Shown here piece by piece: positions 147 through 15,280 of a DNA stretch of 15,313 bases. This stretch comes from Planctomycetota bacterium (GTDB taxonomy: Bacteria > Planctomycetota > Brocadiia > JAJRTI01), in the NCBI GenBank assembly GCA_024278415.1, contig JAJRTI010000274.1, positions 1-15,313 on the forward strand. The letters are read 5' to 3'. The notes beneath the pieces are model-generated. The model made no database searches. It had not been told where the DNA came from and saw only the letters and a list, made by a program, of their open reading frames with translations. A program made the position numbers and the translations under genes. Position 1 is the first letter of the stretch. Every line of letters starts with the position of its first letter.

Positions 147-1133
147 CTACTGTCGGTTGACGAATTTCAGGTTGACCTTTTGGCCGGGGGCCGCCGGCTT
201 GAGGATGTACTTCTTGATTCGAGGAAGGATGCGCTCCATCGTCTCCAAGTACAGGCGATAGCGGGTCACGTCCTCGGAGTAGATCTTCGCATCCCGCTGA
301 TACTGCGCGAGCATAGCCTCGAACCCTTGGGCGTCGCCGGTGGCGCGGTTGACCACTTTGATACGGTAGCTTTCGGCTTCGCTGACGATCTCCCGCGCTT
401 TGCCGCGGGCTTCTGGCACGATGCTATTGGCGAATCCTCTGGCTTGGTTGATGGCCTGCTCCCGGTCTTCCCTCGCGGTCTGGACGTCGCGGAACGCGTC
501 GGCCACGTCCGTGGGGGGGACAATCGCGCGGATGTTGAAGGCGGTGATCTGGAGCCCGCATTCGTAGCTGTCGAGCACGTTCTGCGCCTTCGAGAGGATC
601 TTGGTCTGCGCGCCGACCTTCTCCGTGGTGAGGATCGCGTCCACGCCCATCTGCCCAATCAACTCCACGAGCGCGGCGCCCACTGCGTTGTGCAGCAGCC
701 GCTCCTCACTGAAGTTGGCCCGGTAGAGGAACTGAGCGGCATCTTTGATCTTGTAGTGCACGATGGCCTGGACGTTGATGATGTTCTCGTCGCCGGTGAG
801 GAGTTGGAGCTTCTCCGGCAGGAACGCCGGGTGCTCATGCTCCGGCAGCACCATGCCAATGTCCGCACGGCGGACTTCGCTCACATTGACCGTCTCCACG
901 GTGTCCACGGGCCAGGGGATTCGGTAATGCGCACCCGCCCCCTCAGTGGCGACAACTCGGCCAAGGCGCTTGACCACGGCCTGTTCGCCGGGGCGAACAA
1001 TGTAGATGCCGGTGAGGAAGTACATGCTGATGAGCAGGACGATGCCGATCGGCGCCAACACCGCCAGCTTGAGGTGTCCGAACGCTTGGCGGATGTCGTC
1101 CCAGGGATTGCGGGGGGGAGTCTCTTCGGTCAT
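147..1133 (-). CDS. hflK: HflK-type SPFH/band-7 protein, FtsH modulator
   Basis: A 328-residue SPFH protein. One transmembrane segment lies at about residues 23-44, followed by the HflK-like entry motif IYIVRPGEQAVVKRLGRVV (43-61), the SPFH domain to about residue 220, and a charged coiled-coil helix. By analogy with E. coli the N-terminus is cytoplasmic and the SPFH domain periplasmic, joining HflC in a cage that gates FtsH access to membrane substrates. At 328 residues it is shorter than E. coli HflK (about 419) and lacks the Gly-rich N-terminal tail. An insertion with an EHEHP motif (98-102) sits inside the SPFH domain, where the fused paralogue at 2111-3646 has none. The ATG overlaps the hflC stop (ATGA, 1130-1133), which implies translational coupling, and AGGAGG (1143-1148) lies 9 nt upstream. 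It ends in TAG. Family assignment is strong; the role in this organism is inferred. Confidence 0.9.
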   Translation of the reverse strand: MTEETPPRNPWDDIRQAFGHLKLAVLAPIGIVLLISMYFLTGIYIVRPGEQAVVKRLGRVVATEGAGAHYRIPWPVDTVETVNVSEVRRADIGMVLPEHEHPAFLPEKLQLLTGDENIINVQAIVHYKIKDAAQFLYRANFSEERLLHNAVGAALVELIGQMGVDAILTTEKVGAQTKILSKAQNVLDSYECGLQITAFNIRAIVPPTDVADAFRDVQTAREDREQAINQARGFANSIVPEARGKAREIVSEAESYRIKVVNRATGDAQGFEAMLAQYQRDAKIYSEDVTRYRLYLETMERILPRIKKYILKPAAPGQKVNLKFVNRQ

Positions 1134-2080
1134 TTCGTCGGACCTCCTGCGAGTGAGGGTGCGCGGCCCGCGGCGGCTGTCGCTTTGGGGAGCTTCCCTT
1201 GGTCTAGGTACTGCAACAACTCTGAGTCCGCCGGGAGGATAGCGGTCGTCTTATCATCAATGATCTTCTCATAGGCGGCGAGGGTCCGGATGAAGCGGTA
1301 GAACGAGGGATCCTTCTGGAAGGCTTTGGCGTAGATGGCGATGGCTTCAGCCTCGCCATCGCCCCTGATGATCTCAGCCTTCTTGTAGGCCTCCGAGAGG
1401 ATCGACTGCTCTTCCTTTCTCGCTTCCGCTCGGATCTTGGCCGCCTCTTCGCTGCCCTCAGATCGGTACTTCCTGGCCATTTGTTCGCGTTCGGCCTTCA
1501 TGCGCCGGAACACGCTCAACTTGTTGTTCTCGGGGAAATTGAGGGTCCGCATCTCCACGTTCACGATCTCGATCCCGTACGCGGTCGCCTGTCGGTTGCA
1601 GCCCTCGACGACGGACGTGAGCATGTCATGGAGCTTCATGCGCGCCGGGTCCTCGTTGACGAGATCGCTGAGTTCGTATTTGCCAAGCTCCACGCCCAAG
1701 ACTGAGGAGATGACGTCCGACAGGCGCGCCTCAGCCCCGATCTTGTCCCGGACCGTCTTCAGGAACGCTAAGGGGTCTGTGATTCTCCACGAGCCGTAGT
1801 AGTCCACGACAACGCTCTTCTTGTCTCTCGTCAGGAACTCGAACTGGCCGGCCTCGTAGACTTGGAGGCGATTGTCGTAGCGTCGTACTGTTTGGATGGG
1901 TTCGGGCAGCTTCCACTTCAGGCCCGGCTTCAAGATCGAGCGCACAGGCTTGCCAAACTGGGTGATCACCGCGAACTCGGTGGTGTCCACGACAAAGAGG
2001 ATCAGGTTGCTGATCACAAGGACGAGCACAAAAAAGCCTATGCCCAAAGCTGTCTTTATCCAGGTCTTGTTCGCTTCCAT
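1130..2080 (-). CDS. hflC: HflC-type SPFH/band-7 protein, FtsH modulator
   Basis: A 316-residue HflC-like protein. A single N-terminal membrane anchor (about residues 10-31) is followed by the HflC-style sequence VDTTEFAVITQFGKPVR (31-47), an SPFH domain, and a long Ala/Glu/Lys-rich helix (about 190-255) containing the AEGEAEA-like stretch GDGEAEAIAIYAKAF. That helix is the conserved coiled coil that packs neighbouring subunits. The ATG at 2080 is preferred because TAGGAG lies 7 nt upstream; a TTG one codon earlier (2083) is also in frame. It starts 30 nt after the CDF-HflK fusion and overlaps hflK by 4 nt, so the three SPFH genes appear co-transcribed. In known systems HflC pairs with HflK in equal numbers; here it has two possible HflK partners. 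Confidence 0.92.
   Translation of the reverse strand: MEANKTWIKTALGIGFFVLVLVISNLILFVVDTTEFAVITQFGKPVRSILKPGLKWKLPEPIQTVRRYDNRLQVYEAGQFEFLTRDKKSVVVDYYGSWRITDPLAFLKTVRDKIGAEARLSDVISSVLGVELGKYELSDLVNEDPARMKLHDMLTSVVEGCNRQATAYGIEIVNVEMRTLNFPENNKLSVFRRMKAEREQMARKYRSEGSEEAAKIRAEARKEEQSILSEAYKKAEIIRGDGEAEAIAIYAKAFQKDPSFYRFIRTLAAYEKIIDDKTTAILPADSELLQYLDQGKLPKATAAAGRAPSLAGGPTK
1143..1148 (-). promoter_or_regulatory. Shine-Dalgarno AGGAGG of hflK, inside hflC
   Basis: A full AGGAGG on the minus strand lies 9 nt before the hflK ATG, within the last codons of hflC. It fixes the start at 1133 and supports coupled translation across the ATGA overlap. Confidence 0.75.
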
Positions 2081-2110
2081 CAAGGATCTCCTATTCCGTG
2101 TGTCAGAAGG

Positions 2111-3646
2111 TCATTTGGTATCGAACAGCGCGCCTGTGCCCTTTCCGAGGAACCAGAGATCGGTCCCTCCGAGTTGGATGTCGCCGCTCACAAGGAATTT
2201 GCGGACACCAGGCAGAACCTTCTCCATCGCTTCGAGGTAAAGCCTAGTTTGGGTGATATCGCGTGAACTGGCGAACTCGGCCAGCTTCTTAAGGAATCGC
2301 TCGGCTTCGCCTTCGGCCTGGCGCACTCTTGCGACTTTCGCCGCCTCTGCCGCAGAGATCCGTTCAAAGGCTTGGCCGCGCGCCTTGGGCACCAACGCGT
2401 TTTGGAATGAATAGGCCTCGTTGATGTACGTGACCTTATCCTCCCGCGCACTGGCTACGTCTTGGAACGCCTCAATCACGTCCTCGGGCGGCCGCAGGTG
2501 GAGGAACAGCACGTCGAGCACTTTGATGCCGGTGGCATTCTTATCGAGTTCGGCCTGAAGGCTTGTCCGGATGTCCGCCAGCGCGCGTGCGCGCTCGATG
2601 GTGAGTAGGTCGTCGATCGCGGTGCGGCCCACGGTGTTGCGGACGCCGGCTTGCGCGGCGTCCTTTACCAGTGCGTCTGGCGAGGCCGGTTTGAGGAGGT
2701 ACTTCACCGGGTCATCCACCCGATAGTGCACCGCCACCTCCACGTCCACGAGGTCTTCGTCGCCGCTCAGCAGCAGACGCTTCTGTGTGCTGACCTGCCG
2801 GACCGGCGTCGTCCTGACGCGATTGACGCGCTCAAAGGGATAAGGCAGCCGGTAGTGAAGGCCTGGGCCCATGGGTTTGCCCCGCACTTTGCCCAAGCGG
2901 CGAATCACGGCCTGTTCTTCGGGGCGCACATAGTAGAAGCCTGACGCCAGATAGCCTGCCGCGGCCAGCAGAATCAGGCCTGCCGTGACGAGCTTGTTGG
3001 GCCCCTTCAAGTCATGGGCATGCTCCTCCCCGATCTCTTCCCGGCCCGAGAGGAGCGCCCGTATGTTGGTGCTGAGTATCTCGATGGCCGCCAGGAAGAT
3101 AAACACAACCACGATGGTGGCCGCGACTTTGTCGAGCCCTGTGAGACCGAAGACACTCCCCACCAGCCCCACCAGCACGGCGCTCGAGCAAAACATATCC
3201 ATGCGCGCGTGGTAGCCTGCTGCGAGCAAGCTGGGCGATCCGGTCTGCTGCCCGACGAACAGCATGTACCGGCCCATGAAATAGGTGATGCACACGCCGA
3301 GGAACGCGCCGAGCGCGGACGGGATGAGGTAGGCAAGCTCGGCCGCCTCGCCGCCCACGGCCTCGGTGAAGAGTTCGAAGCCCATCCAGAGGATGAAGAT
3401 GGCGACGAAAATTGCGACCATGTTCTCCACCCGGGCAATGAGGCCCTTATGGCGCTGGTACTTCTGCCTGGCCACCACCAGGCCAAGGTATACGACTCCG
3501 AGCACGAATACGTCGGCCAGCGAGTGCCAGGCGTTCGCTTTCAGCGCTAAGCTGCCTGACACGAAGCCAAGCAGAAAACGCAGGCAGATGAGCAGCGCGT
3601 TCGCTCCAATACTGATCAGTACCGTCTGTTCTTTTCGTTTGTCCAC
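2111..3646 (-). CDS. CDF cation-transporter membrane domain fused to an HflK-like SPFH domain
   Basis: A 511-residue two-part protein. Residues 1-200 form about six hydrophobic segments resembling the membrane half of cation diffusion facilitators. Both HxxxD metal-site motifs are present: H41/D45 in NAWHSLAD (TM2) and H146/D150 in YHARMD (TM5), equivalent to the zinc site of YiiP-like transporters. The usual cytoplasmic dimerisation domain is missing. After a linker with EEHAH (208-211), a seventh membrane segment (about 217-238) leads into YYVRPEEQAVIRRLGKV (238-254) and a full HflK-like SPFH domain with coiled coil (to about 480). Topology is compatible: CDF termini are cytoplasmic and HflK enters the membrane from the cytoplasm. 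The start is GTG, with GAGGAG (3655-3660) 8 nt upstream. It lies between the isomerase and hflC. Both halves are in one frame with no stop between them, so a genuine fusion is favoured. Substrate metal and transport activity are unknown. Confidence 0.88.
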   Translation of the reverse strand: MDKRKEQTVLISIGANALLICLRFLLGFVSGSLALKANAWHSLADVFVLGVVYLGLVVARQKYQRHKGLIARVENMVAIFVAIFILWMGFELFTEAVGGEAAELAYLIPSALGAFLGVCITYFMGRYMLFVGQQTGSPSLLAAGYHARMDMFCSSAVLVGLVGSVFGLTGLDKVAATIVVVFIFLAAIEILSTNIRALLSGREEIGEEHAHDLKGPNKLVTAGLILLAAAGYLASGFYYVRPEEQAVIRRLGKVRGKPMGPGLHYRLPYPFERVNRVRTTPVRQVSTQKRLLLSGDEDLVDVEVAVHYRVDDPVKYLLKPASPDALVKDAAQAGVRNTVGRTAIDDLLTIERARALADIRTSLQAELDKNATGIKVLDVLFLHLRPPEDVIEAFQDVASAREDKVTYINEAYSFQNALVPKARGQAFERISAAEAAKVARVRQAEGEAERFLKKLAEFASSRDITQTRLYLEAMEKVLPGVRKFLVSGDIQLGGTDLWFLGKGTGALFDTK

Positions 3647-3713: not shown

Positions 3714-5672
3714 TCAATACAGAGAACGCTCGTCCGTGTGTGTCTTGGATTCTACTTGCAGCATCCGGCTCAGGACGAAGTCCCTGATGACCAGTTGCGA
3801 TTTCTCTAGGAGTTCGTTCTGAAGTTCAATCGCTCGTTCCTGGTGTTTGATCGCTTTGAGATACTGTTCGATCCTGGGCCGAGCCTCTTCGAACGTTTGT
3901 TGACGGCTGGGCTGAAGTTCGCGCATCTTCACAATCCAGTAGTTATTGCGGAACTCGAAGAAGTCGCTCACCTCTCCGGGCTGAAGCCGAAACACCTGCT
4001 GGTGGAATCCGTGCTCATAGAGTTCGCCGAGATGGCTGCCGCCTTCAAAGATCCACCGGTCCATATCGCCGCCGCGCGTGGCGGTCCAATCTTGTGAGTA
4101 CTCCTTGGCCACTGCTGCGAAGTCCTTCCCCTCGCGGAGTTTCGCTTGGGCCTCTTCGATCTTATTGCGCGCGCGTTTGCGCTCGTCTTCGTTGAAGCCG
4201 ATCGCGATGCGGATGATGCTCACTTTGGCTTTGGCCGGCTGCTTGAGCACGGTCTTTCGTTTTTCATAGAGATCGCGGGCCTCTGCTTCGGTCACCTGGA
4301 TCTTCTCGTCCACCTCTTCCTTGTGCAGCATCTGCTGAAGCGCGCGCCTCTTCAGTTCTTCGATCTCCTTGCGCCGTTCCGTCTTGACGCCCTTGTCCTC
4401 CGCTTTTTCCATCAACAGTTCTTTGATGATGAGTTGGTCGAGCAAGTTCTTCTTCGCCTCGAAATTGCCGAACTGGCGTTGCTGGGTGGGAGTGAGTTCG
4501 GAGAATTCCTGCTGGAACTCCTCCACTGTGAACCGTTTGCCGTGAATGGAGAACAGCGCCTCGTACTTGTTGCCCTTGAACTTGTCATCTTCCTTCTTGC
4601 GGCGGACCGCGGCTTTCACATCTTGTAGGACCTCCGCGAGCGGCCTCTCTCCTTGCCCCTCACGTTCCAGCACTTTGACGACATAGAATAAATCGCCGTC
4701 CTTGAAGATTGGCGTGGTTTCGCCGGGATAGTAGCGGAAGACGGTGCGCTCGAATGTCTTGCTCCTCTGGCCCCGCTCGACAAGCTCGACGGGGGCGGTC
4801 TTGTCATCGGCGAACTCCGCCGCCACTTTGGGGAAGTCTGCGCCGGTGCGGAGTTTCGTCAACGCCTTCTCAGCCCTCTCGCGCCCCGCCTTCTCGTCGG
4901 CGGCGCTGACGCGGAGGGTCTGAATGCGGACGAACTCCGGCTTGGCGAATTCTTTGCGATGGGCCTCGTAGTAGGCTTTCACCTCTCCTTCGGTCGGTTC
5001 AGGCACTTTGAGCAGATCATAGTTCCGCTCGATCACCGCATTGGCCTTGAGTTCTTCGATGTACTTGGGAATGTAGTCGGCCTGTTTCTGCGCCACCAGG
5101 ATGCGCTCGATATCCTTCTCGACTTCGCTGAAGGGTCGATTCTTGTATTCTGCTTTGTGCTGCTCATAATACTGGCGCATTTCCACCTTGTCCGGTTTCA
5201 GCTTGTCCGCGTGCATCTCGCCGGCCAGCGCGTCCAGGTTGATCTCCTCGACCAGGTGCTTGAGCTTATGCTTGACCTCCTTGCGCGCGGTCATGCCCTT
5301 CTGCCTGATCCACCGGTTGACCATTCTCTCCATCACGAGTTCTTTGAGGAGAACCCGATAGGATTCGACGGAGTTGAGAGGATGCGTCTCACACTTTTCT
5401 TGGGGTGAGCACTTGGAGTGATCGTATCCGTGTTTGTCACAAACAGAATGCTTGCCGTGGCGAGCGACCGTCTTGTTGATGTAATCGCGCAGCCCACTTG
5501 CGGTGACCTCGCCGCCCACAAAGGTCGCGACCACATCCTCGCCGATGCGCTTCTCGACCTGCACGATTTTGACCTTCTCCGCCTGCTCCTGTTTGACCCC
5601 CAGCATGATGAGCGCAAGGGTCAGCGCGGCCACGCCAACCACCGTCATGGCAATCGCAAGCTTCTGAGACAT
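3714..5672 (-). CDS. Membrane-anchored double-parvulin peptidyl-prolyl isomerase (SurA/PpiD-like)
   Basis: A 652-residue foldase-like protein. An N-terminal anchor (about 5-25, QKLAIAMTVVGVAALTLALI) precedes a SurA-type helical region. Two parvulin-like domains lie at about 246-338 and 482-588; the second is clearer, with SIIRIAIGF, GKDFAAVAKEYSQD, RGGDMDRW and LQPGEVSDFFEF. Between them is another helical chaperone-like segment (375-475). Near the N-terminus, residues 72-97 hold H72, H75, C78, H81, H85, C88, C94 and H97, a possible metal or disulfide module foreign to ordinary SurA or PpiD. The ATG at 5672 is preferred because it directly precedes the anchor and has GGAG about 9 nt upstream. 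The frame stays open to 5855, but that extension is Arg/Pro-rich and not protein-like. It would fold or escort exported and membrane proteins on the periplasmic side, next to the HflKC genes. The first parvulin domain is divergent and may be inactive. Confidence 0.85.
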   Translation of the reverse strand: MSQKLAIAMTVVGVAALTLALIMLGVKQEQAEKVKIVQVEKRIGEDVVATFVGGEVTASGLRDYINKTVARHGKHSVCDKHGYDHSKCSPQEKCETHPLNSVESYRVLLKELVMERMVNRWIRQKGMTARKEVKHKLKHLVEEINLDALAGEMHADKLKPDKVEMRQYYEQHKAEYKNRPFSEVEKDIERILVAQKQADYIPKYIEELKANAVIERNYDLLKVPEPTEGEVKAYYEAHRKEFAKPEFVRIQTLRVSAADEKAGRERAEKALTKLRTGADFPKVAAEFADDKTAPVELVERGQRSKTFERTVFRYYPGETTPIFKDGDLFYVVKVLEREGQGERPLAEVLQDVKAAVRRKKEDDKFKGNKYEALFSIHGKRFTVEEFQQEFSELTPTQQRQFGNFEAKKNLLDQLIIKELLMEKAEDKGVKTERRKEIEELKRRALQQMLHKEEVDEKIQVTEAEARDLYEKRKTVLKQPAKAKVSIIRIAIGFNEDERKRARNKIEEAQAKLREGKDFAAVAKEYSQDWTATRGGDMDRWIFEGGSHLGELYEHGFHQQVFRLQPGEVSDFFEFRNNYWIVKMRELQPSRQQTFEEARPRIEQYLKAIKHQERAIELQNELLEKSQLVIRDFVLSRMLQVESKTHTDERSLY

Positions 5673-5862
5673 TCGGTCCACTCCAGTTGTCGTGCACGAG
5701 AAGGCAGGAAGACGCGTGCTCAGCAGGTACACTTTGAGCACGGACGAGTCGTGAGGCGGGATCGGTGCGCGGAGAGGACGTGGGCTGATCCAACCTCCGG
5801 TGGCGCCCGCGCTCAGGGCCCTGCGGACCCAAGCCGGTGGGCGCCTGCGGCCCAACTTGAGG
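5673..5862. other. Intergenic leader upstream of the isomerase gene, with repeat segment
   Basis: This stretch separates the isomerase start from the His-rich reading frame and probably contains the operon leader, though no -35/-10 pair can be named with confidence. At its upstream edge, 5844-5867 (CCTGCGGCCCAACTTGAGGC onward) resembles 3-27 at the other end of region A. Two near-identical words, CCGGTGGCGCC and CCGGTGGGCGCC, occur about 35 nt apart near 5798-5845. Confidence 0.35.
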
Positions 5863-6815: not shown

Positions 6816-8942
6816 TCACTTCAGCATCTGGAACGCGGCCTCGCCCGGCCGCAGGGTGAACGAACGGCCCAACGCGTCGAACGACACGGCGCGGGCCGCG
6901 ATGCAGGCGAAGACGTAGCCGGCCCGGCCATCGGGCAGGCGCCACGCGCTGTGCAGGACGCTGGGGACCTCAAGCACCGTCCTCGTCTTCTTGCGCCAGT
7001 CGTAGAAGTTCAACTCACAGGGCGGCACGTTCAGCGCAGGGGAAGCCACCCGCTGTCCGAAGACGAGAAACTCCCGAGCCGGCCCGCGCCACAGGGCGAC
7101 GTGCGCGCGCAGCAGCCGGCGCTGGAATGCGTGCGTGGAACGCGGGTCGAACCACCGCGTCCACACAGACGCGCCGGGCGTCTTGCCGCAAACCAAGTTC
7201 GCGGCCTGCTGGTAAAGCGCGACCGGCCACGGCTTGTCGCTTGCCAGGCAAGAGTCGCCTCCGTAGCCAAGCATATAGTCGTGGTACACGTGCGTAAAAA
7301 GTGGGACGCCTAGGACCCCGCGGCCTGACCGCGGCCAGCTCGCCTGCTTGTAGTCGCGGGCGTGGTAGACGTCGAGCACGGGGATGAAGAACTCGCCTGG
7401 CTCTTCCATCGAGAACGCGAAATGTGGATCCTTCGCCTTTCCCTTGCGTCGAATCTCCGCAAACAGGTTGTAGAGGCTTTTCGCACACCAGCTCCCGCCG
7501 CCGGGCGGATGCGAGTGTTTCGGATGGTAGCACAGAGGCAGCCCGCCGCCGACGATCCCGTCGGCTTGCACGCAGTCGATCCCCAAGTCCTGGCACCGCA
7601 TGGCCGATCCCAGCAGAATCTCCCGCGCCAACGGTGTGGCCGAGCAGATTTGCGCATACTGCCCGATGCCATCCGTTGGCTTCCCGAAAACAAGCGGTTT
7701 GCCGGCGGGGTTTGAGACCGCGTACGGCCGGCCCCTCTGGTCGAACGCGGCCTGCTGGTCGATAACGACTCCATCGCGCTTCTTGTGCAGCGTCCACTTG
7801 AGCCCTGAGAGGAACACGAGCGCGCGGTGGCCGCGTGCGTGAAGCCCGCTCACGGCCGCTCGGAACGCGTCGGCGCCGCCGAAGGGCGGGAAGTAGTCTG
7901 GCGTGACCCACGGCCCGCGTTTCTCCCAGGCCATCAACATGAACGTGACCGGCCCCCCAAGCACCTCCCGCCAAGCCTCGGCCTGCTTCACCACGTCCGG
8001 CAGACGGTTGGCCATCTTCTTGTCCCGGTCTTGTCCGCGCAGTGAGAACGCGTAAAAGAGCGATGGCTCGGTGAGCCACTTGGGCACGTCGCCCGCGGCC
8101 ACGCGTTCGGCGAGCGTGCGCCGGCACCAGGGCTGCTTCACGGCCCACGCGCGATACAAGTCCGCCGCGGCCTCCCACGAGGTTGTGTCGGGGCCGAACG
8201 CGCCGCGGAACGTCGTGAGCGCCATGTCGTACGACAGCTCCCACTCGCGCCGCGGCGTGCGGGACAACAGGTGCGCCACGTTCAATTCGATTCCCTGGCC
8301 CACGCGCCGCGCGTTGAGCATCTTGGTGTGCGCCTGGGCGTCGTATGCGGCCAGGTAGAGTCCGGCCCGCTTGTCGTAGAGGGCCATGAGCTGCATCGAC
8401 GCCCCGCCAGGGTACGGCAGCGCTCGATAGATGCCATTCTTCAACGGGTCGCGCACGATGCTCCCATCGCAGAGAGGCAGGAGCGCGGCATCGTCTTCCC
8501 CTGAATCGCCCAGTGGCAAGGCGACGCGCAGGATCGGGAAGCGGACCCACGAAAGCGACCGCGGCGGGTCGCACTTCACGGCGATGCGGCCGAAGATGAA
8601 CGGGCTACCCGGCCGCACGCGAAACGTGCACGTGACCGCGATCGGCGCTTGCGCGTGCCGCGCCACCTCGATACGCAGGCCGTCCGGGAGCCGCTGCACC
8701 TTGATCTGCGCGGCATCCCGCGACGTGATCCGCAGATCGGGCGCCGCAAATGCCAACTCGTAGAGCGGAGCATTGGGATCGAGCGCGAACTCGCACCCTG
8801 TCGCCTTGTCGATCAACGACATCAAGCGGCCGCTCGTCGGATCGACTCGCAGGCGCGTCGCGACGCTCTCCACCTCGAGCGCGGCGCCCCAGAGGGGCGG
8901 CCCGAGAAGAACCAATGCGGCAAAGAACGTTCGCATTCTCAT
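6816..8942 (-). CDS. Secreted DUF6259-like glycoside hydrolase
   Basis: A 708-residue protein with a signal peptide (residues 1-21, RTFFAALVLLGPPLWGA). The N-terminal half (about 22-240) looks like a beta-sandwich of the type preceding glycosidase barrels. The rest fits a TIM barrel: WVTPDYFPPFGG (345-356), then IDCVQADGI with D461, CYHPKHSHPPGGGSW (471-485), and SMEEPGEFF with E513/E514. The D461 and HSHP/GGG region matches the pattern I associate with DUF6259 proteins, related to alpha-galactosidase-like and GH101-like barrels. D461 and E513 or E514 are candidate nucleophile and acid/base; this is inference. The ATG at 8942 is chosen because GGAGAA lies about 8 nt upstream and the signal peptide follows at once; the frame stays open to 9032 but would overlap the upstream sulfatase. 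The start lies 44 nt after that sulfatase, so they are probably one transcript. Substrate unknown. Confidence 0.8.
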   Translation of the reverse strand: MRMRTFFAALVLLGPPLWGAALEVESVATRLRVDPTSGRLMSLIDKATGCEFALDPNAPLYELAFAAPDLRITSRDAAQIKVQRLPDGLRIEVARHAQAPIAVTCTFRVRPGSPFIFGRIAVKCDPPRSLSWVRFPILRVALPLGDSGEDDAALLPLCDGSIVRDPLKNGIYRALPYPGGASMQLMALYDKRAGLYLAAYDAQAHTKMLNARRVGQGIELNVAHLLSRTPRREWELSYDMALTTFRGAFGPDTTSWEAAADLYRAWAVKQPWCRRTLAERVAAGDVPKWLTEPSLFYAFSLRGQDRDKKMANRLPDVVKQAEAWREVLGGPVTFMLMAWEKRGPWVTPDYFPPFGGADAFRAAVSGLHARGHRALVFLSGLKWTLHKKRDGVVIDQQAAFDQRGRPYAVSNPAGKPLVFGKPTDGIGQYAQICSATPLAREILLGSAMRCQDLGIDCVQADGIVGGGLPLCYHPKHSHPPGGGSWCAKSLYNLFAEIRRKGKAKDPHFAFSMEEPGEFFIPVLDVYHARDYKQASWPRSGRGVLGVPLFTHVYHDYMLGYGGDSCLASDKPWPVALYQQAANLVCGKTPGASVWTRWFDPRSTHAFQRRLLRAHVALWRGPAREFLVFGQRVASPALNVPPCELNFYDWRKKTRTVLEVPSVLHSAWRLPDGRAGYVFACIAARAVSFDALGRSFTLRPGEAAFQMLK

Positions 8943-8986
8943 TGCGGCTTCTCCGTGCCTTCTTGAGAAAAAGATGGCGTTCCGAT

Positions 8987-10450
8987 TCACGAGGACGATT
9001 CGTACGGAACGCCTTCCCTGCCCAACGCCCACTCGAAGGGCCCCCGCAAGCGATCCTGCGTTTCCTCCATCCAGTCATGCAGCATGCCCATCATGTGGTG
9101 CCGGATGTCTTTGTACGCCGGGTCGCCGACCCGATTCGTCACCTCCCACGGATCTTTTTCGAGGTCGTAGAACTCGTCGATGTCCGTGGCGTTGAAGACG
9201 TACTTGTGGTTCTCGTGGCGAATCATGCGCTGCGAAACGAGCAGGGCCATGCCATGCGATTCCGACACGACGTGATCTCGCCAGGCGACGTCGCCCGCGT
9301 TGGGGTCGAGCAATGGGGCGAGACTGCTCCCTTGCACGCCGGCCGGGGGCGCGAGGCCGGCCGCGGCCAGCAAGGTCGGCATGATGTCGGCGGACGAGGC
9401 GAACCGCTCCTCCCGCTCGCCGCGGCGCATCCCCGGCCCGGCGATGATGAGCGGAATCCGATACGTCTCTTCGTACATGAAGTAGCACTTGTCCATCAAG
9501 CCGGCGTGCATGCCCAGCGAGTCGCCGTGGTCGGCCGCGAAGACGATCACCGTCTCCTTGTCCATGCCCAGCTCAGACAGGCGGCCCAGCATCCGGCCGA
9601 TCTGGTCGTCGATCATCGTGGTGAACGCGTGGGACAGGCGGATTCGCTCCTGCCAGAACTCCCAGGGCCGATCAATGCAGTCGGGCCGCATGACCTGGCG
9701 GTGAATCGCCGGCTTGTCCGCCTTGTCGTCGCGGAAATTGCCGTGTTCAGGGATGGGGGCATCCTTGTACATGTCCACGTACTCTTGGGTTGAGAAGTAC
9801 GGAGGATGCGGCCCCCAGAAGTTGCACCAGATGAAAAACGGCTTCTCTTGTTCTTTGAAATCCTTGGCAAAGCGGTCCATCTGGCCCATGGCTTCTTGAG
9901 CGAGGAAGTACGGCACGGTGGCTTCAATGGGGCCTTTGACAATGCCGCCTCGATGCCCGGCGTTGAGCGTCGTCTGCTCGATCTCGTACGAGAGGCCGTT
10001 CGATTCCAGATACTCCTTGTATTCCGGATACCCGAAGCCGCCCCCGCCGTGGCCGGGGAAGTTGTGTCCTTCGAATCCGAAATGCTTGGGCAGCGATTTC
10101 GCGCCCAGGTGCCACTTGCCCACGTAGCCCAGGTTGTAGCCCGCCCCCCGGAGTTGCTCGGACAGGACGTGCGGCGCAACCTGGAATTCGCTCATCTCGC
10201 AGCCGGGGCCATGGACGTTCGTGGTCACTTTGTGCGTGTGCGGATACTGGCCCGTCATGAGGGTGCCACGGGCCGGCGAGCACACGGAACAGGTCGTGTA
10301 GGCGCGGTCGAACGTTACGCCGCGGTCAGCGATGCTGTCGATGTGAGGAGTCTTGCAGACGGGTGCGCCGTAGGCGCCGACCGCGTCGCAGCGGTGTTGG
10401 TCCGTGAAGATGAACAGGATGTTCTTTTTCGGGGTCAAGGAGGGCGCCAT
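8987..10450 (-). CDS. Cys-type sulfatase (S1 family, alkaline-phosphatase superfamily)
   Basis: A 487-residue arylsulfatase-like enzyme that hydrolyses a sulfate ester. Family landmarks are in order: FIFTDQHR (D17/Q18, metal site), CSPAR (57-61, C57 becomes formylglycine), GKWHLG (K112/H114), GPHPPY (H215), AADHGD (D307/H308) and MDKCYFMYEE (K321). The C-terminus (about 380-480) is the usual small sulfatase subdomain. No signal peptide is visible: the first strand begins at residue 10, so the enzyme appears cytoplasmic unless the start is wrong. The ATG (10448-10450) directly abuts the TGA of the truncated MFS frame (10451-10453), and its GGAG lies in that frame's last codons, so translation could be coupled. 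A formylglycine-generating enzyme (anSME or FGE) is not in the window but would be needed. The substrate cannot be read from the sequence. Confidence 0.93.
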   Translation of the reverse strand: MAPSLTPKKNILFIFTDQHRCDAVGAYGAPVCKTPHIDSIADRGVTFDRAYTTCSVCSPARGTLMTGQYPHTHKVTTNVHGPGCEMSEFQVAPHVLSEQLRGAGYNLGYVGKWHLGAKSLPKHFGFEGHNFPGHGGGGFGYPEYKEYLESNGLSYEIEQTTLNAGHRGGIVKGPIEATVPYFLAQEAMGQMDRFAKDFKEQEKPFFIWCNFWGPHPPYFSTQEYVDMYKDAPIPEHGNFRDDKADKPAIHRQVMRPDCIDRPWEFWQERIRLSHAFTTMIDDQIGRMLGRLSELGMDKETVIVFAADHGDSLGMHAGLMDKCYFMYEETYRIPLIIAGPGMRRGEREERFASSADIMPTLLAAAGLAPPAGVQGSSLAPLLDPNAGDVAWRDHVVSESHGMALLVSQRMIRHENHKYVFNATDIDEFYDLEKDPWEVTNRVGDPAYKDIRHHMMGMLHDWMEETQDRLRGPFEWALGREGVPYESSS

Positions 10451-10603
10451 TCACTTCTCCATGCAGAATGTTACGACAGTGTAGAGGGGCAGAAACCGCT
10501 CGGCCATTCCCTCGCCCAGGCCCACGAGCACGACCATAGAGAGCAGGCCGACGATGCTCCGCCTCAGCCCGAAGAACCCGCGGAAATGGCGCCACTCTCT
10601 CAT
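10451..10603 (-). pseudogene. Truncated MFS transporter gene (5' fragment)
   Basis: A 50-codon frame that begins MREWRHFRGFFGLRRSIVGL and matches the start of the MFS protein at 12489-13721 in 36 of its first 41 residues. At DNA level 10481-10603 aligns with 13599-13721 without gaps, with about 11 differences in 123 bp (about 91% identity). After codon 41 the match stops, nine unrelated codons follow, and the frame ends in TGA touching the sulfatase ATG. Sequence upstream of the ATG does not match the intact gene, and no good Shine-Dalgarno is seen. Several differences are synonymous, so the copy may have been constrained for a while. It could be translated as a one-helix peptide that couples to the sulfatase, but a relic of a lost transporter gene is simpler. 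Confidence 0.8.
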
Positions 10604-10735
10604 GCCGTGCGCCATACCCATGCTCTTTGATCGAGTGCGACGCCAACTCGGTGGCGCAATTGCAGCCGGCGCGTACGATGGCGAGCATCCGATCTCTCTG
10701 CGGCAGAACGAATCTCGACTTTCGCATGGGTCGGC
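10604..10735. other. Spacer between the apiosidase-like gene and the MFS fragment
   Basis: This 132-bp spacer shows no convincing gene, hairpin or terminator and does not resemble the sequence upstream of the intact MFS gene. Confidence 0.4.
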
Positions 10736-12046
10736 TCACGGCGCGATGTCTCCTGGCTGCAACACGAGCACCCAATCGTTGCCGCGTTGGACCGGCCCGG
10801 GCGGATCGAATCGGCGTTGGCCGTCTGAGGCGGCCACGGCGATTTCGCGGTCGTGTCCGGTCCTTGGATCAAACCAACGAGCGTGCAGGCGGCCCTTCTT
10901 GAACTGGCCAAGATCGACCGTGAACGGCTCGCCCTGCGGTGTGTAAACCAGCGCGTACCTTCCCTGCTTCCCGCCGGCGGCTGAGATGCGCCGGTGCACG
11001 GCGAGCGATTTGTGCCCGCCATTATCCGACGCGGCGACAAGCCCTTCGAGGGGCACACGGCTCGTCGGAGGAAAGGACTCCATGAGCCTGCGAAGGTATT
11101 GCATCTGCACGCGGCCGGGCAAGTCGAGGCTTTGCCGCCATTTCCCCTTTCCGCCCTCCACTGGCGAGTCGAACCCGTAGATGTTCCAACTGCCGTATGT
11201 ATGGCCAAACGCGCCGGCAAAGACCGACTGCCACGCCTGCACGCGCACTTCCCAGGCATTCACGGGCGGCTTCTTCCACGTCGCCCCCTCATACCACGGT
11301 TCGAGATTGACAATCGGTTTTGTGGGCTGGCGAGCGGAGTCGGCTGAAATTGTGCGCACGATAGCGTTCGCCGGCCGCAGCCCGATCTGCGCGCCATTGA
11401 AATCGAGCCACGCCGCGTTGTGAAACCACTTCGACGAGGTGCTATGGCCGCGCGGGTGGTAGGTCATGAGCGTCGCGTCCCACTTGGCCTTGCCGTCGAA
11501 CTTATCCTCGCCCGCGACGCCATCAGCCACCCCCTCCGCCATTGCGTTCCAGCCCTGGAATCCCATGGGCGCGACGCGCTTGGAATCGTCCGGGTTGACA
11601 TCAATTCCTATCCCCCAGATGAGGTTGGTCTTGTCCCGAAAAAGCGCGCCGAGCGCGCGTCCGTATCGATAGGCCTCTTCGCGCGTGCGACAAAACGGGC
11701 CGTGGTTGTCCTTCCGTCCTGGCGCGCCGGCGACGAGGAGCACGTAAAGCTCCCGTGCGGCCGCCTCGTCCATGACCCACCCCAGGTATTCCCAATACCG
11801 CGGGTTCAGGCGCCACGGCTTGCCTTCGAGGTACGGCGCGTTTCCGTAAGCATTCTTGCCGTCGTGCAGCGCCCAAGTGTTGACGGACATGAGCTGAATC
11901 ACAGTGAACCGCTTCGCGTTGGCGTCGTCGAGGTAGCGCAACACGTCGTCTTTCTTGAGGTTTTGATGGAGGGCCCACGCGGTATCGCCGAGCCAGAAGA
12001 ACGGCCGCCCGTTCGTGCGGACGAGAAACCTACCCGTGCGGTCCAC
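10736..12046 (-). CDS. Apiosidase-like glycoside hydrolase (GH140/DUF4038 type), 5' end broken
   Basis: A 436-residue open part from a GTG at 12046. The beginning, GRFLVRTNGRPFFWLGDTAW (5-24), is the standard entry to DUF4038/apiosidase-like barrels. WGIGIDVNPDD (144-154, D149) and VNLEPWYEG (246-254, E249 or E253) fit the two catalytic carboxylates of the family. The C-terminal region from about 335 (KKGRLHARWFDPRTGHDREI and beyond) matches the collagen-binding-like beta domain usually found after the barrel. The family releases apiose or related residues from plant-type polysaccharides; the substrate here is unknown. The GTG lacks a good Shine-Dalgarno. The same frame continues upstream through a TAG to a signal peptide with a strong ribosome site (see 12047-12148), so the native gene probably ran from 12148. 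Starting at 12046 would leave it unsecreted. It may be a recent nonsense mutant, a base-call error, or a readthrough gene. Confidence 0.78.
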   Translation of the reverse strand: MDRTGRFLVRTNGRPFFWLGDTAWALHQNLKKDDVLRYLDDANAKRFTVIQLMSVNTWALHDGKNAYGNAPYLEGKPWRLNPRYWEYLGWVMDEAAARELYVLLVAGAPGRKDNHGPFCRTREEAYRYGRALGALFRDKTNLIWGIGIDVNPDDSKRVAPMGFQGWNAMAEGVADGVAGEDKFDGKAKWDATLMTYHPRGHSTSSKWFHNAAWLDFNGAQIGLRPANAIVRTISADSARQPTKPIVNLEPWYEGATWKKPPVNAWEVRVQAWQSVFAGAFGHTYGSWNIYGFDSPVEGGKGKWRQSLDLPGRVQMQYLRRLMESFPPTSRVPLEGLVAASDNGGHKSLAVHRRISAAGGKQGRYALVYTPQGEPFTVDLGQFKKGRLHARWFDPRTGHDREIAVAASDGQRRFDPPGPVQRGNDWVLVLQPGDIAP

Positions 12047-12148
12047 TCTGAGCCTGGGAAGCTCTCGTCCCGCATTTGCAGACGTTGCGCGGGCCTGCGC
12101 CTAAACGAGGAGGCATACAAAGAGGGCCATGCTGTTCACGATTCTCAT
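12047..12148 (-). pseudogene. Detached signal-peptide start of the apiosidase-like gene, ended by in-frame TAG
   Basis: From the ATG at 12148 the minus strand reads MRIVNSMALFVCLLV, then TAG (12101-12103), then AQARATSANAGRELPRLRV in the same frame, running straight into the 436-residue body (12148-12103 is 45 nt; 12103-12046 is 57 nt). This is a textbook signal peptide (basic n-region, hydrophobic core, AQA cleavage site) with the stop at the end of the core. AAGGAG lies 5 nt before the ATG. Confidence 0.75.
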
Positions 12149-12153
12149 TTCGA

Positions 12154-12159
12154 CTCCTT
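12154..12159 (-). promoter_or_regulatory. Shine-Dalgarno AAGGAG for the interrupted apiosidase-like gene
   Basis: AAGGAG on the minus strand, 5 nt before the ATG at 12148. Its strength, compared with the weak site before the GTG at 12046, marks 12148 as the native start. Confidence 0.7.
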
Positions 12160-12201
12160 ATTCAAGCAGCGTAGACACACGGGATCGAGGTAGCGCCTGG
12201 C

Positions 12202-12417
12202 TGTCAAGCCCGAAGGGCTGACACATACCAGCCCAGGGCGCAGCCCTGGGTAGGCTTCACTCGCCGAACTCACAGAGCCCCAAAGGGGCGGCTCATTGGC
12301 TCAGCGCGCTCGGCTCTGCGAACGGTGTGTCGCCCCGTTGGGGCTTGCCCTGTCCATGGCGGCCTCGTTCCCAGGGCTGCGCCCTGGGCGGGTATGTTGC
12401 ACCCCTCTCGGGGTGCA
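12202..12417. repeat. Array of six short GC-rich palindromic hairpins (REP-like)
   Basis: The 340-bp gap between the apiosidase-like and MFS genes is packed with hairpins: 12202-12223 (TGTCAAGCCC/GGGCTGACA with a bulge), 12232-12250 (CCCAGGGC-GCA-GCCCTGGG), 12277-12289 (GCCCC-AAA-GGGGC), 12332-12344 (GCCCC-GTT-GGGGC), 12370-12388 (CCCAGGGC-TGC-GCCCTGGG) and 12398-12417 (TGCACCCC-TCTC-GGGGTGCA). The 12232 and 12370 units share both arms, with loops GCA and TGC that are reverse complements, so the two units are inverted copies. The 12332 unit resembles the hairpin at 32-50. No T-runs follow. Such arrays fit REP/BIME-like dispersed repeats, often mobilised by RAYT transposases; none is encoded here. 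Confidence 0.7.
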
Positions 12418-12488
12418 GAGGGTCTGGCCTGCCACGGTGGGACAGGATCGCTTGGCGACAGCAAGTGCTCGAATCTCGGATGAGCCCT

Positions 12489-13721
12489 TCAGTCTTCATC
12501 GGCAGGATCGCCCGCGAGGTCTGTGCCAAAGAGAGCGAACCAGAGCGTGCCGAGTGCGCCGAACGCGGAGGCGGCCAGGAGGTTCATCGCCGGGCTCCTC
12601 ATCCAGAGGAACGCGCCGCCAAACGCGGCCACGGACACCACGACGTCTCGAAGCAGGTAGTAGAGCCCAAACATGGCCGCCTTCCGCCCTTCCGGCGCGA
12701 GGTCCATGATGAGGGCCTTGCGCGTGGGCTCACCAAACTCCTTGAGGCCCCGAAGCGCGAACGCTCCGGCGAGCAGCACGAAGTTTTGGCAGAACAGCAG
12801 CGCGAGAGGGAACAGCGTGAAGAAGACGAACGTCGCCACCACGAACGGTTTCTTGTGGCTGCGGTCCGCGAAGTATGCGACCGGGATGTAGATCAGCATC
12901 GCGGTGGCCATCTCGATCGTCGTCAGGATGCCGAATTGGAACGCCGTGACCGGCGTGTGGATGGCTTTCATGCACCAGATGACCACGAACGCGTAGGGGA
13001 TCTGCTCGCAGAAGCGCACGAGGATGTCCGAGACCAACAGATTCCGGAGGGCAGGGCTCATCTGGCGGAGTACGACCAGCGGGTTCTTTTCGGCAGCCGA
13101 CGCGCGGCCTCCTTCCGCCTTCTCCCGAGGCTCATCGGCGATCAGCAATTGCTGCAACACGATGGCGACTCCGGCCATCACGAATGCCACGATGAACGCC
13201 GCCCGCACGCCGTCCCGCTCGCCCCATGCGCCGATGCACAGGCCGCCGATCACCGGCCCCAACGCCATGGGAACGCGGCGCACCAGCGAGTGCATGGACA
13301 CGCCCATGGTGCGCTTGTTCTTCGGCAAGGCCTTGGCCACGAGGCCCATGGTCGCCGGCAGTGAGATCGCCGTCCACGATAGGAAAAAGGCCGCGCCCGC
13401 GATGACGGCTTGCCACGTTGGGATGAGGATGACGATCAGGAAGCCGCCCATGGCCAGGAGGTTGAACACGATCAGCGCGCGCTTGGTGCCGATCCGGTCG
13501 GCGAGGTAGCCGCCGGGGAAGGAGTAGAGCGCGGACAGCAGGTTGTCCAGGCCGTTGAGGAGCCCCACCGAGATCGCGCCGCCGCCAAGCGCCACCAGGT
13601 AGATGGGCAGAAACCGCTCGGCCATTTTCTCGCCCAGGCCCACAAGCACAACCATGGAGAGCAGGCCGACAATGCTCCGCCTCAGCCCGAAGAAATCGCT
13701 GAAATGGCGCCAATCTCTCAT
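12489..13721 (-). CDS. Major facilitator superfamily (MFS) transporter
   Basis: A 410-residue polytopic membrane protein with about 12 hydrophobic segments. MFS motif A is present between helices 2 and 3 (GYLADRIGTKRAL, 71-83), with a related sequence between helices 8 and 9 (AYFADRSHKKPFV). A hydrophilic central loop (REKAEGGRASAAEKNPLVV) divides the two six-helix halves. Length and layout are normal for MFS. GGAG lies 7 nt before the ATG at 13721. It follows the sulfatase at 13793-15280 by 71 nt on the same strand, and the truncated copy at 10451-10603 also adjoins a sulfatase, so it may carry the sugar or sulfated oligosaccharide handled by these enzymes. Direction and substrate cannot be read from the sequence. 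Confidence 0.88.
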   Translation of the reverse strand: MRDWRHFSDFFGLRRSIVGLLSMVVLVGLGEKMAERFLPIYLVALGGGAISVGLLNGLDNLLSALYSFPGGYLADRIGTKRALIVFNLLAMGGFLIVILIPTWQAVIAGAAFFLSWTAISLPATMGLVAKALPKNKRTMGVSMHSLVRRVPMALGPVIGGLCIGAWGERDGVRAAFIVAFVMAGVAIVLQQLLIADEPREKAEGGRASAAEKNPLVVLRQMSPALRNLLVSDILVRFCEQIPYAFVVIWCMKAIHTPVTAFQFGILTTIEMATAMLIYIPVAYFADRSHKKPFVVATFVFFTLFPLALLFCQNFVLLAGAFALRGLKEFGEPTRKALIMDLAPEGRKAAMFGLYYLLRDVVVSVAAFGGAFLWMRSPAMNLLAASAFGALGTLWFALFGTDLAGDPADED

Positions 13722-13792
13722 GTGAGGTCTCCATTACTCTCCGTGTCCAGCAATGGCGGCAATCTTGGCGTCCAGCCTCGCCCGTGCCGCAC
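13722..13792. other. Short spacer between sulfatase and MFS genes
   Basis: A 71-bp spacer that carries the MFS Shine-Dalgarno (GGAG) near its end. No promoter or terminator is clear, consistent with co-transcription. Confidence 0.4.
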
Positions 13793-15280
13793 TCAGTACT
13801 CCCACTTCTCCACTGGCAGTCCAGTTCGATACAACAGCACACGCGGCTCGTATCCGTCGTCGGGCCGGGGGCGAGTGGGGCCGCTCCACTGCATGCGGCA
13901 ATCTTGCCGCCAGGGGCGACGCTCCCAGATGGGGCCGCGCAGGGGGTCGCGGGTGCGGTTCATCCAGGCGAGCAAGCGGTCGTGCAGATCGTCGCGCAAG
14001 GCCGCGTGAGCGGGCGACTCGATCAAATTGGCCATCTCGCCAGGGTCTTCGGCCAGGTCGTACAGCTCGTCCGTGTAGTGCAAATTGACCACGAGCTTGT
14101 GCCGGCCATCGAACACACAGCGGATCGGCTGGAACCCGCCGAGGCCGTCGTGGTCCAGTTCGAACCGATTGAACTCGATGAAGATCTCGTCCTGCGGCCG
14201 GTGCATCGGGTTCGCGACCGTGTCCATCAGGCTCACGCCGTGGAGGAACGGCGGCGGGTCGAGCCCGGCCGCTGCGAGGATCGTGGGCACGATGTCCGCG
14301 TGCGAGACCGGGTGCTCGCAAACCGCTCCCTTCGGCGCGCAGCCCGGCCAGCGCACGATGAACGGCACGCGCACGATCTCCTCGTACATCGTCGGGCCCT
14401 TGCCGGTGAGCTGGTGAGCGAAATCGTGGTGGCCGTGGTCGGACGTGTAGATCACGAGCGCATCCGGCGCGAATTGGTCGACCGCGTCGAGTACGCGGCC
14501 GATCTCATAGTCCACGAACGCGTTGCACCCGAAGAACATGGGCCGTTTGAACGACTTCATGCCGCGGGCGAATTTGTGCTCCGCGGCCCATTCGCGCTGG
14601 TGCGCGGGCTTATTGGCCAGCGTGTCGTTCGTGTTCTCGCCAAGCGCATACTCGTAGTCCACGAACATGTCGCAGAACGGCGGCGGGCAGGTGCACGGGC
14701 CGTGGGGCTCGTCGTAGGAGACCGCGAGGAAGAACGGTTCGTCCGCGTGCTTGGACAAGAAGTCGACCGCGCGGTTCGAACAGCGATGCGCGTACGTGTC
14801 GTCTTCGGTGATTCCGTGTTCGTGGATCTTCTCACGCGAGTTGAGATCCTGGCGCCAGCGCAGACGCTCGTCTGGCGACAATTCGTCGAGGTAGTTGCGG
14901 ATGTCGTACCAATACTCCGGGTCCCACCCCGGCGGGCAGATGCCGTTGCCGAAGTAGTCCGTGCCATCGAGATGCCACTTGCCCATGTACGCAGTGTGGA
15001 AGCCGTTGTCCGCGAGGCGCTGGCCGATGGTGCGGATGTTGTCGCCCATGGGCACGGCATTGCCCAGCACGCCGTTGGTGTGTGGGTACGTGCCGGTGAA
15101 AATGCCCGCCCGCGCGGGCCCGCACACCGGCTGGCACGTGTACCCGCGGTCGAAGCGTATGCCCTCGCTCGCAAGCCGGTCGATGCACACGGTCTGAAGC
15201 TCGGGGCGGCCATAGCACCCGACCTTGTCCGCGCCCTGCGAGTCCGTCATGATGAACACAATCTTGCTGGCTTGGGGCAT
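13793..15280 (-). CDS. Cys-type sulfatase (S1 family, alkaline-phosphatase superfamily)
   Basis: A 495-residue sulfatase and distant paralogue of the one at 8987-10450. Landmarks: VFIMTDSQG (D13; the next residue is Ser where Asp or Gln is common), CGPAR (53-57, C53 becomes formylglycine), GKWHLDG (K101/H103), DEPHGPC (H193), TSDHGHHD (D281/H282) and LTGKGPTMYEE (K294). The unusual Ser14 may alter one metal ligand. Cys197 and Cys203 in the loop after H193 (CTCPPPFC) are notable. No signal peptide is seen; the ATG (15278-15280) has GAGGAG 4 nt upstream, and the first strand begins at residue 6, so a cytoplasmic location is predicted. Together with the downstream MFS gene this suggests import followed by desulfation inside the cell. 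The precise S1 subfamily cannot be assigned by eye. Confidence 0.92.
   Translation of the reverse strand: MPQASKIVFIMTDSQGADKVGCYGRPELQTVCIDRLASEGIRFDRGYTCQPVCGPARAGIFTGTYPHTNGVLGNAVPMGDNIRTIGQRLADNGFHTAYMGKWHLDGTDYFGNGICPPGWDPEYWYDIRNYLDELSPDERLRWRQDLNSREKIHEHGITEDDTYAHRCSNRAVDFLSKHADEPFFLAVSYDEPHGPCTCPPPFCDMFVDYEYALGENTNDTLANKPAHQREWAAEHKFARGMKSFKRPMFFGCNAFVDYEIGRVLDAVDQFAPDALVIYTSDHGHHDFAHQLTGKGPTMYEEIVRVPFIVRWPGCAPKGAVCEHPVSHADIVPTILAAAGLDPPPFLHGVSLMDTVANPMHRPQDEIFIEFNRFELDHDGLGGFQPIRCVFDGRHKLVVNLHYTDELYDLAEDPGEMANLIESPAHAALRDDLHDRLLAWMNRTRDPLRGPIWERRPWRQDCRMQWSGPTRPRPDDGYEPRVLLYRTGLPVEKWEY

Follow-up and report, generated by a model that had tools for sequence, protein, structure and literature searches.

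Cation diffusion facilitators (CDFs) are exporters that remove metal from the cytoplasm, and a cytoplasmic C-terminal dimerisation domain is usual, though not universal, among them. The SPFH proteins HflK and HflC form cages with the protease FtsH in E. coli. The transmembrane helices of HflK and HflC surround FtsH completely in the closed cages, an open form also exists, and the zinc peptidase of FtsH is cytoplasmic (PMC12048511). We analysed a 15,313-nucleotide contig of a Planctomycetota bacterium (JAJRTI010000274.1, called the window below), in which one open reading frame (ORF) on the reverse strand encodes a CDF membrane domain and an HflK protein as one chain, the CDF-HflK fusion protein A. 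The same fusion occurs in many phyla within a conserved four-gene cassette, and taken together the findings speak for a cage devoted to metal.

Protein A leads from a six-helix CDF domain through a His-rich linker and a seventh helix into a complete HflK part. The CDF half, which has the six-helix fold, scored 113 bits with TIGR01297 (cut-off 82) and 101.5 bits with Pfam Cation_efflux (cut-off 26.6), and the HflK half passed the equivalog model TIGR01933 with 216 bits (cut-off 159). The HflK match covers residues 219-499, where the model elements are one anchoring helix in front of the SPFH/Band_7 domain and a long helix (residues 391-460) continuing from that domain. A CDF cytoplasmic dimerisation domain was not found in A with Pfam at E<=1, and the TIGR01297 match ended at position 203 of 285. 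The architecture and topology proposed in the original prediction, namely a CDF core that has lost its cytoplasmic domain and continues through a seventh helix into HflK, were thus borne out by the Pfam and TIGR models and by an AF2 model. Both halves of A are members of known families; what is new is their combination and the cassette.

The window's own protein is known from a single 15,313-base contig, as might be the case if an artefact of assembly or gene calling had fused two genes. A protein search in which 7,997 candidates were scored yielded 337 proteins, and both domains were present in 119 of the best 120 of these. When one genome was scanned per species, 479 relatives came up, although a part of these may be plain HflK, and the 80 best loci were retained. 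An ORF matching both the CDF and the HflK parts was found in 80/80 of these loci, among them isolates and one complete genome, and the CDF-HflK proteins form one clade in the tree described below. Since homologues carry the same fusion, the single frame is confirmed and the artefact is virtually excluded.

The conserved cassette consists of a PpiC-type peptidyl-prolyl isomerase (PPIase, P), the CDF-HflK fusion (A), HflC (C) and a second HflK (K). HflC comes after CDF-HflK in 78 of the 80 loci, the two exceptions being cut off by a contig end. The second HflK is present in 74/80, with a contig end in every exception, and a PPIase ORF likewise in 74/80, the other six loci ending inside or just past the cassette. 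The position of the PPIase gene varies by lineage, lying either before CDF-HflK or after the second HflK. The four genes of the window share one orientation; 67 and 27 bases separate the first three, and the last two overlap by 4 bases (Table 1). The ORF of P is open to position 5855; its start at 5672 was placed by reference to relatives of similar length that begin at the same hydrophobic stretch, and this N-terminal stretch would probably anchor P in the membrane.

The residues H41, D45, H146 and D150 of A align with site A of YiiP, in transmembrane helices 2 and 5. Their HD-HD arrangement is the site composition given for Zn-specific human transporters (PMC6465983). The four ligands were near-invariant (112-119 of 120 homologues), with H41 in 118, D45 in 119, H146 in 119 and D150 in 112; the last position held H in 4 and E in 3, and the rest were gaps. 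In a 95-row alignment that includes distant loci as well, H41 and H146 were present in all 95 rows, D45 in 92 (3 G) and D150 in 88 (7 H). The linker (residues 198-218 in this count) contained at least one His in 94/95 rows, at least two in 85/95 and an HxH motif in 60/95, and its His content was 11.7% vs 1.1% in the remainder of the protein.

Further His and Cys/His motifs lie in the partner proteins. In the loop of K that precedes its LTGDEN motif, an alignment-based count found at least two His in 52/52 cassettes, these being the 52 of 57 nonredundant loci with a K of sufficient length. The same loop had at least two His in 0/11 canonical HflK proteins (one with a single His) and in 0/57 CDF-HflK proteins. 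A motif of the form H..C..H...H..C.....C..H, a candidate metal site, was found in P of 26/55 nonredundant loci with a P ORF, window included, and had no match outside cassette ORFs among 3,943 ORFs in all. By record titles, it occurs mainly in Planctomycetota/Lentisphaerota/Kiritimatiellota-like and Bacillota copies. The motifs of linker, K and P presumably bind metal.

Downstream of the second HflK, four loci (L001, L002, L003, L004) encode a second PPIase paralogue, whose N-terminal region has a Cys/His-rich segment of another kind, and in L002 and L004 this paralogue is placed between the second HflK and an ATPase. The PPIase of L054, L057 and L080 has a C/H cluster near residue 372, and the second HflK of L048, L054, L057 and L080 has a longer His/Gly-rich insert replacing the short His pair.

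We next consider the neighbourhood of the cassette, counted over 57 nonredundant loci including the window, with flanks elsewhere of at most 6 kb. A P-type ATPase was found beside the cassette in 18 loci, an OmpR-type response regulator in 23, a histidine kinase in 21, SCO in 4 and DUF305 in 4. The ATPase ORFs near cassettes numbered 19, and all 18 that were scanned (a fragment of 104 amino acids was omitted) matched the heavy-metal model TIGR01525. In the whole-genome counts given below, matches under its cut-off were left out (6 rows in the cassette set and 4 in the set of the third family). All 18 also matched both Cd-type and Cu-type models at E<=1e-20, and one with separate scores was above the cut-off of the Cd model and slightly below that of the Cu model. 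Their motif was CPC in 13 of the 18, SPC in 3 and APC in 1, with none in one truncated ORF. Five loci (L002, L004, L005, L007, L008) have the ATPase on the downstream side of the second HflK, and in four of the five another PPIase ORF comes in between. Among 22 whole genomes, which were picked for spread after the first ATPase neighbourhood counts and in which several cassettes and control loci sit on short contigs, a P1B ATPase lay within 10 kb of CDF-HflK in 14, vs 0.55 expected at random placement. For canonical hflK the corresponding count was 0/9 (57 and 89 kb away in two; the contigs of the other seven carry none). One cassette copy sits on a conjugative plasmid, where it is surrounded by heavy-metal ATPase, SCO, PCuAC, CopC, CopD, DsbB-like and thioredoxin-like genes.

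HflK has also been joined to other N-terminal partners. A P1B-type metal ATPase is fused to HflK at L090:4364-7531 (-) and is followed by HflC and HflK; its pump passes its family model, and nine more proteins in the protein search share its three domains. A third family, here called T3A (about 640 amino acids, for example L092:4121-6052 (-)), joins a cryptic CDF fold, as seen in a model, to an HflK-like part. T3A also occurs at L093, L094, L096 and L099-L128, adjoining HflC, HflK and usually a P1B ATPase, and was found in 54/145 genomes searched of one phylum. A P1B ATPase was beside it in 26/32 genomes, these being the best-scoring 32 of the 54, without G003 and G004 where T3A was first found. 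HxxxD motifs were not found in the T3A alignment, and Pfam recognised Band_7 in 67/70 members and any other family in at most 4. The names of two records (Mn2+ efflux pump; P0198, P0237) had suggested an MntP-like domain, which was rejected when the model gave a CDF fold. HflC and HflK follow the N-terminal pump or CDF-fold fusion at L090, L092, L094 and L096. Another HflK-like protein, of about 760 amino acids, is encoded at L095:1850-4138 (+); in that genome a P1B ATPase lies at a distance of about 2.6 kb.

Going by record titles or tree labels, the fusion was found in Planctomycetota, Lentisphaerota, Kiritimatiellota, Bacillota, Chloroflexota, Methylomirabilota, Thermodesulfobacteriota, Myxococcota, Spirochaetota, WWE3, Fidelibacterota, Pseudomonadota and others, where the phylum labels of metagenome bins may be partly wrong. 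Within a phylum it appears rare when a strict threshold is set. In scans that scored at most 5 candidates per genome, it occurred at E<=1e-130 in 2/294 genomes of the phylum to which G001 (L002) belongs, neither of them new, and in 2/301 of the phylum of G014 (L055), one being G014 itself. Since it spans many phyla, appears rare within a phylum and has one plasmid copy, the distribution is the pattern of an accessory unit moving between lineages. We placed 116 of 203 SPFH domains in a quick maximum-likelihood tree with SH-aLRT support only and no bootstrap. CDF-HflK (25 rows, SH-aLRT 98), cassette HflK (25 rows, 90) and cassette HflC (25 rows, 93) formed clades separate from the canonical HflK/HflC of nine of the same genomes, of E. 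coli and of Tistrella; therefore the cassette has its own history. The CDF-HflK clade falls on the HflK side of this tree, apart from canonical HflK, and three Alphaproteobacterial copies cluster with Chloroflexota.

FtsH scored above its family cut-off in 21/22 cassette genomes, and a separate locus counted as canonical hflK-hflC was present in 9/22 genomes searched. The original prediction had suggested that the fusion might place metal transport at the base of the cage around FtsH, itself a zinc protease. The zinc peptidase of FtsH lies in the cytoplasm, from which CDFs export metal, so the fusion is unlikely to supply zinc to FtsH. The original interpretation is supported in part. Transport by the CDF domain and a position of the cage around FtsH are still proposals. 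The architecture, the topology and the lost CDF domain hold, and the link to metal is stronger than had been proposed there, where the cassette partners were not considered, through the conserved ligands, the P1B neighbours, the His and Cys/His motifs of the partners and the P1B-HflK fusion.

On balance, and by a modest degree of confidence above even, we regard the cassette as a specialised metal-stress cage of the HflK/HflC type whose CDF subunits would export divalent metal at its base. CDF-HflK subunits would join an SPFH cage with HflC and the second HflK, with SPFH oligomerisation substituting for the lost CDF dimerisation domain. The His-rich cytoplasmic linker would collect or sense metal, which the CDF domains would move out of the cytoplasm through the zinc-type HD-HD site, probably by proton antiport. 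On the outer face, the His pairs of K and, in some lineages, the Cys/His sites of the PPIase would bind or sense the exported metal, and the PPIase would chaperone envelope proteins. Transport by the CDF domain is suggested by the ligands and the neighbouring genes; release into the cage, and binding of FtsH or action on it by the cassette, are proposed from sequence. Several observations weigh against this assignment. The cassette contains no FtsH gene. The 22-genome ATPase sample was not blind, because its genomes were chosen after the first neighbourhood counts, and in its exceptions a P1B ATPase was missing from the contig (five), 11 and 19 kb away (two) or 260 kb away (one). No ATPase was found within the stretch examined at L001, L003 and L006, where L001 and L003 end early. 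The neighbouring two-component regulators match many regulator families (19/23 response regulators were scanned, leaving aside three ORFs cut at an end and a long one that was mis-called), and one reached 194 bits vs the cut-off of 279 of the heavy-metal model TIGR01387; many kinase models likewise matched alike in 21/21 kinases scanned. P lacks the Cys/His motif in 29/55 loci. T3A keeps the CDF fold without the ligands, so the fold can persist without a metal site and has some use besides transport.

This last point keeps alive the main rival, a metal sensor that controls FtsH. Here metal held in the HD-HD site and linker, with little transport, would change the shape of the cage and so gate the access of FtsH to substrates such as metal transporters. 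The loss of the CDF cytoplasmic domain, the His-rich linker, an HflK identity above the TIGR01933 cut-off, the presence of FtsH in nearly all cassette genomes and the enclosing E. coli cage that can be open all suit such a sensor, as does T3A in using the fold without a transport site, and conserved ligands would be expected in a sensor no less than in a pump. However, transport-site ligands that are near-invariant across many phyla, P1B exporters clustering beside the cassette, and a P1B pump that passes its family model and is fused to HflK in a parallel lineage speak against it, and we consider the sensor unlikely. If instead the cassette were a chaperone/protease module for envelope quality control under metal stress, then the CDF domain would anchor the protein in the membrane and serve as a scaffold for oligomerisation, transporting metal weakly or not at all. 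The near-constant PPIase, the DsbB-like and thioredoxin-like genes adjoining the plasmid copy and the ligand-free fold of T3A are consistent with this, but a scaffold would not need the four ligand positions, all of which are conserved, and we hold it to be quite unlikely. A metal-loading chamber, in which the CDF releases metal inside the cage and the PPIase and His loops load exported metalloproteins, would account for the K loop, the Cys/His PPIase and the copper-delivery genes beside the plasmid copy. Such a chamber has no known client, and it supposes both release on the inner side of the cage wall and a cage of three subunits; we judge it improbable. Beyond the metal-stress cage itself, a general undescribed class is conceivable, though less likely than not, in which three HflK lineages (with CDF, with P1B-type ATPase, and with ligand-free CDF fold and adjacent P1B) would form cages of three subunits. 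In these, metal export would be coupled to a compartment outside the cytoplasm that has metal-binding His loops and a chaperone of its own, for detoxification or the loading of exported metalloproteins.

The features of the window are collected in Table 1. Its contig stops 146 bases past the second HflK. Upstream of the cassette and on the same strand, positions 6816-15280 form a glycan-degradation region with two sulfatases, an apiosidase-like protein, a DUF6259 protein and an MFS transporter.

Table 1. Cassette genes of the window and the parts of their products.
Feature	Positions	Strand	Details
P, PpiC/PpiD-like PPIase	3714..5672	-	first cassette gene; Rotamase domains, ORF
Cys/His motif in P, candidate metal site	5382..5450	-	motif scan
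A, CDF-HflK fusion protein	2111..3646	-	511 amino acids, single open frame
CDF transmembrane domain of A	3050..3619	-	residues 10-199, ligands H41, D45, H146, D150
His-rich cytoplasmic linker of A	2996..3046	-	residues 201-217
Seventh transmembrane helix of A, HflK anchor	2945..2995	-	residues 218-234, AF2 model
SPFH/Band_7 domain of A	2414..2929	-	residues 240-411, Pfam, TIGR01933 and model
C, cassette HflC	1130..2083	-	TIGR01932 209 bits (cut-off 134)
K, second HflK of cassette	147..1133	-	TIGR01933 226 bits (cut-off 159); 4-base overlap with C
His loop of K	801..878	-	residues 86-111, HEH at 99-101

The database records met here give the fusion HflK names such as 'FtsH protease activity modulator HflK'. 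Among the matches listed, the titles and abstract beginnings of open-licence PMC literature held no description of the fusion or the cassette; the text of an SPFH survey contains no word starting with cation, transporter or fused (PMC2636767). The cassette is apparently undescribed, and it adds a candidate metal-handling system to proteins that public records call simply HflK. Here the gene itself names a cargo, since a metal-transporter domain is covalently part of a cage subunit, in one cassette with its partners and in many phyla. What an SPFH cage encloses thereby becomes directly testable with one protein.

Compared with the HflK/HflC-FtsH complex of E. coli (PDB 7wi3, 7vhp, 9cz2), A has a six-helix CDF domain that replaces the N-terminal part preceding the anchor helix, and the cassette adds a third SPFH protein and a PPIase. 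As in E. coli, an HflC partner is encoded alongside, whereas A, C and K all fall in clades apart from canonical HflK/HflC. In contrast to the zinc transporters YiiP/FieF and ZnT (CDF, SLC30), A lacks the cytoplasmic dimerisation domain and is fused to an SPFH part, and it has HD-HD where YiiP has DD-HD. CDF proteins without the C-terminal domain have been described (Kolaj-Robin et al. 2015, as cited in PMC6465983); to judge by the citing passage, A resembles them in this loss and differs in having SPFH in its place. Stomatin-aquaporin 1 (PDB 9zd2), by its entry title, is also an SPFH assembly with a membrane transporter, but the transporter is a different one and is not covalently attached, whereas A is a covalent fusion. 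Two further counterparts are the P1B-ATPase-HflK fusions, which like A carry an N-terminal metal pump on HflK, with an ATPase instead of a CDF, and T3A, which like A has a CDF fold on HflK but without the HxxxD ligands. Both point the same way as CDF-HflK.
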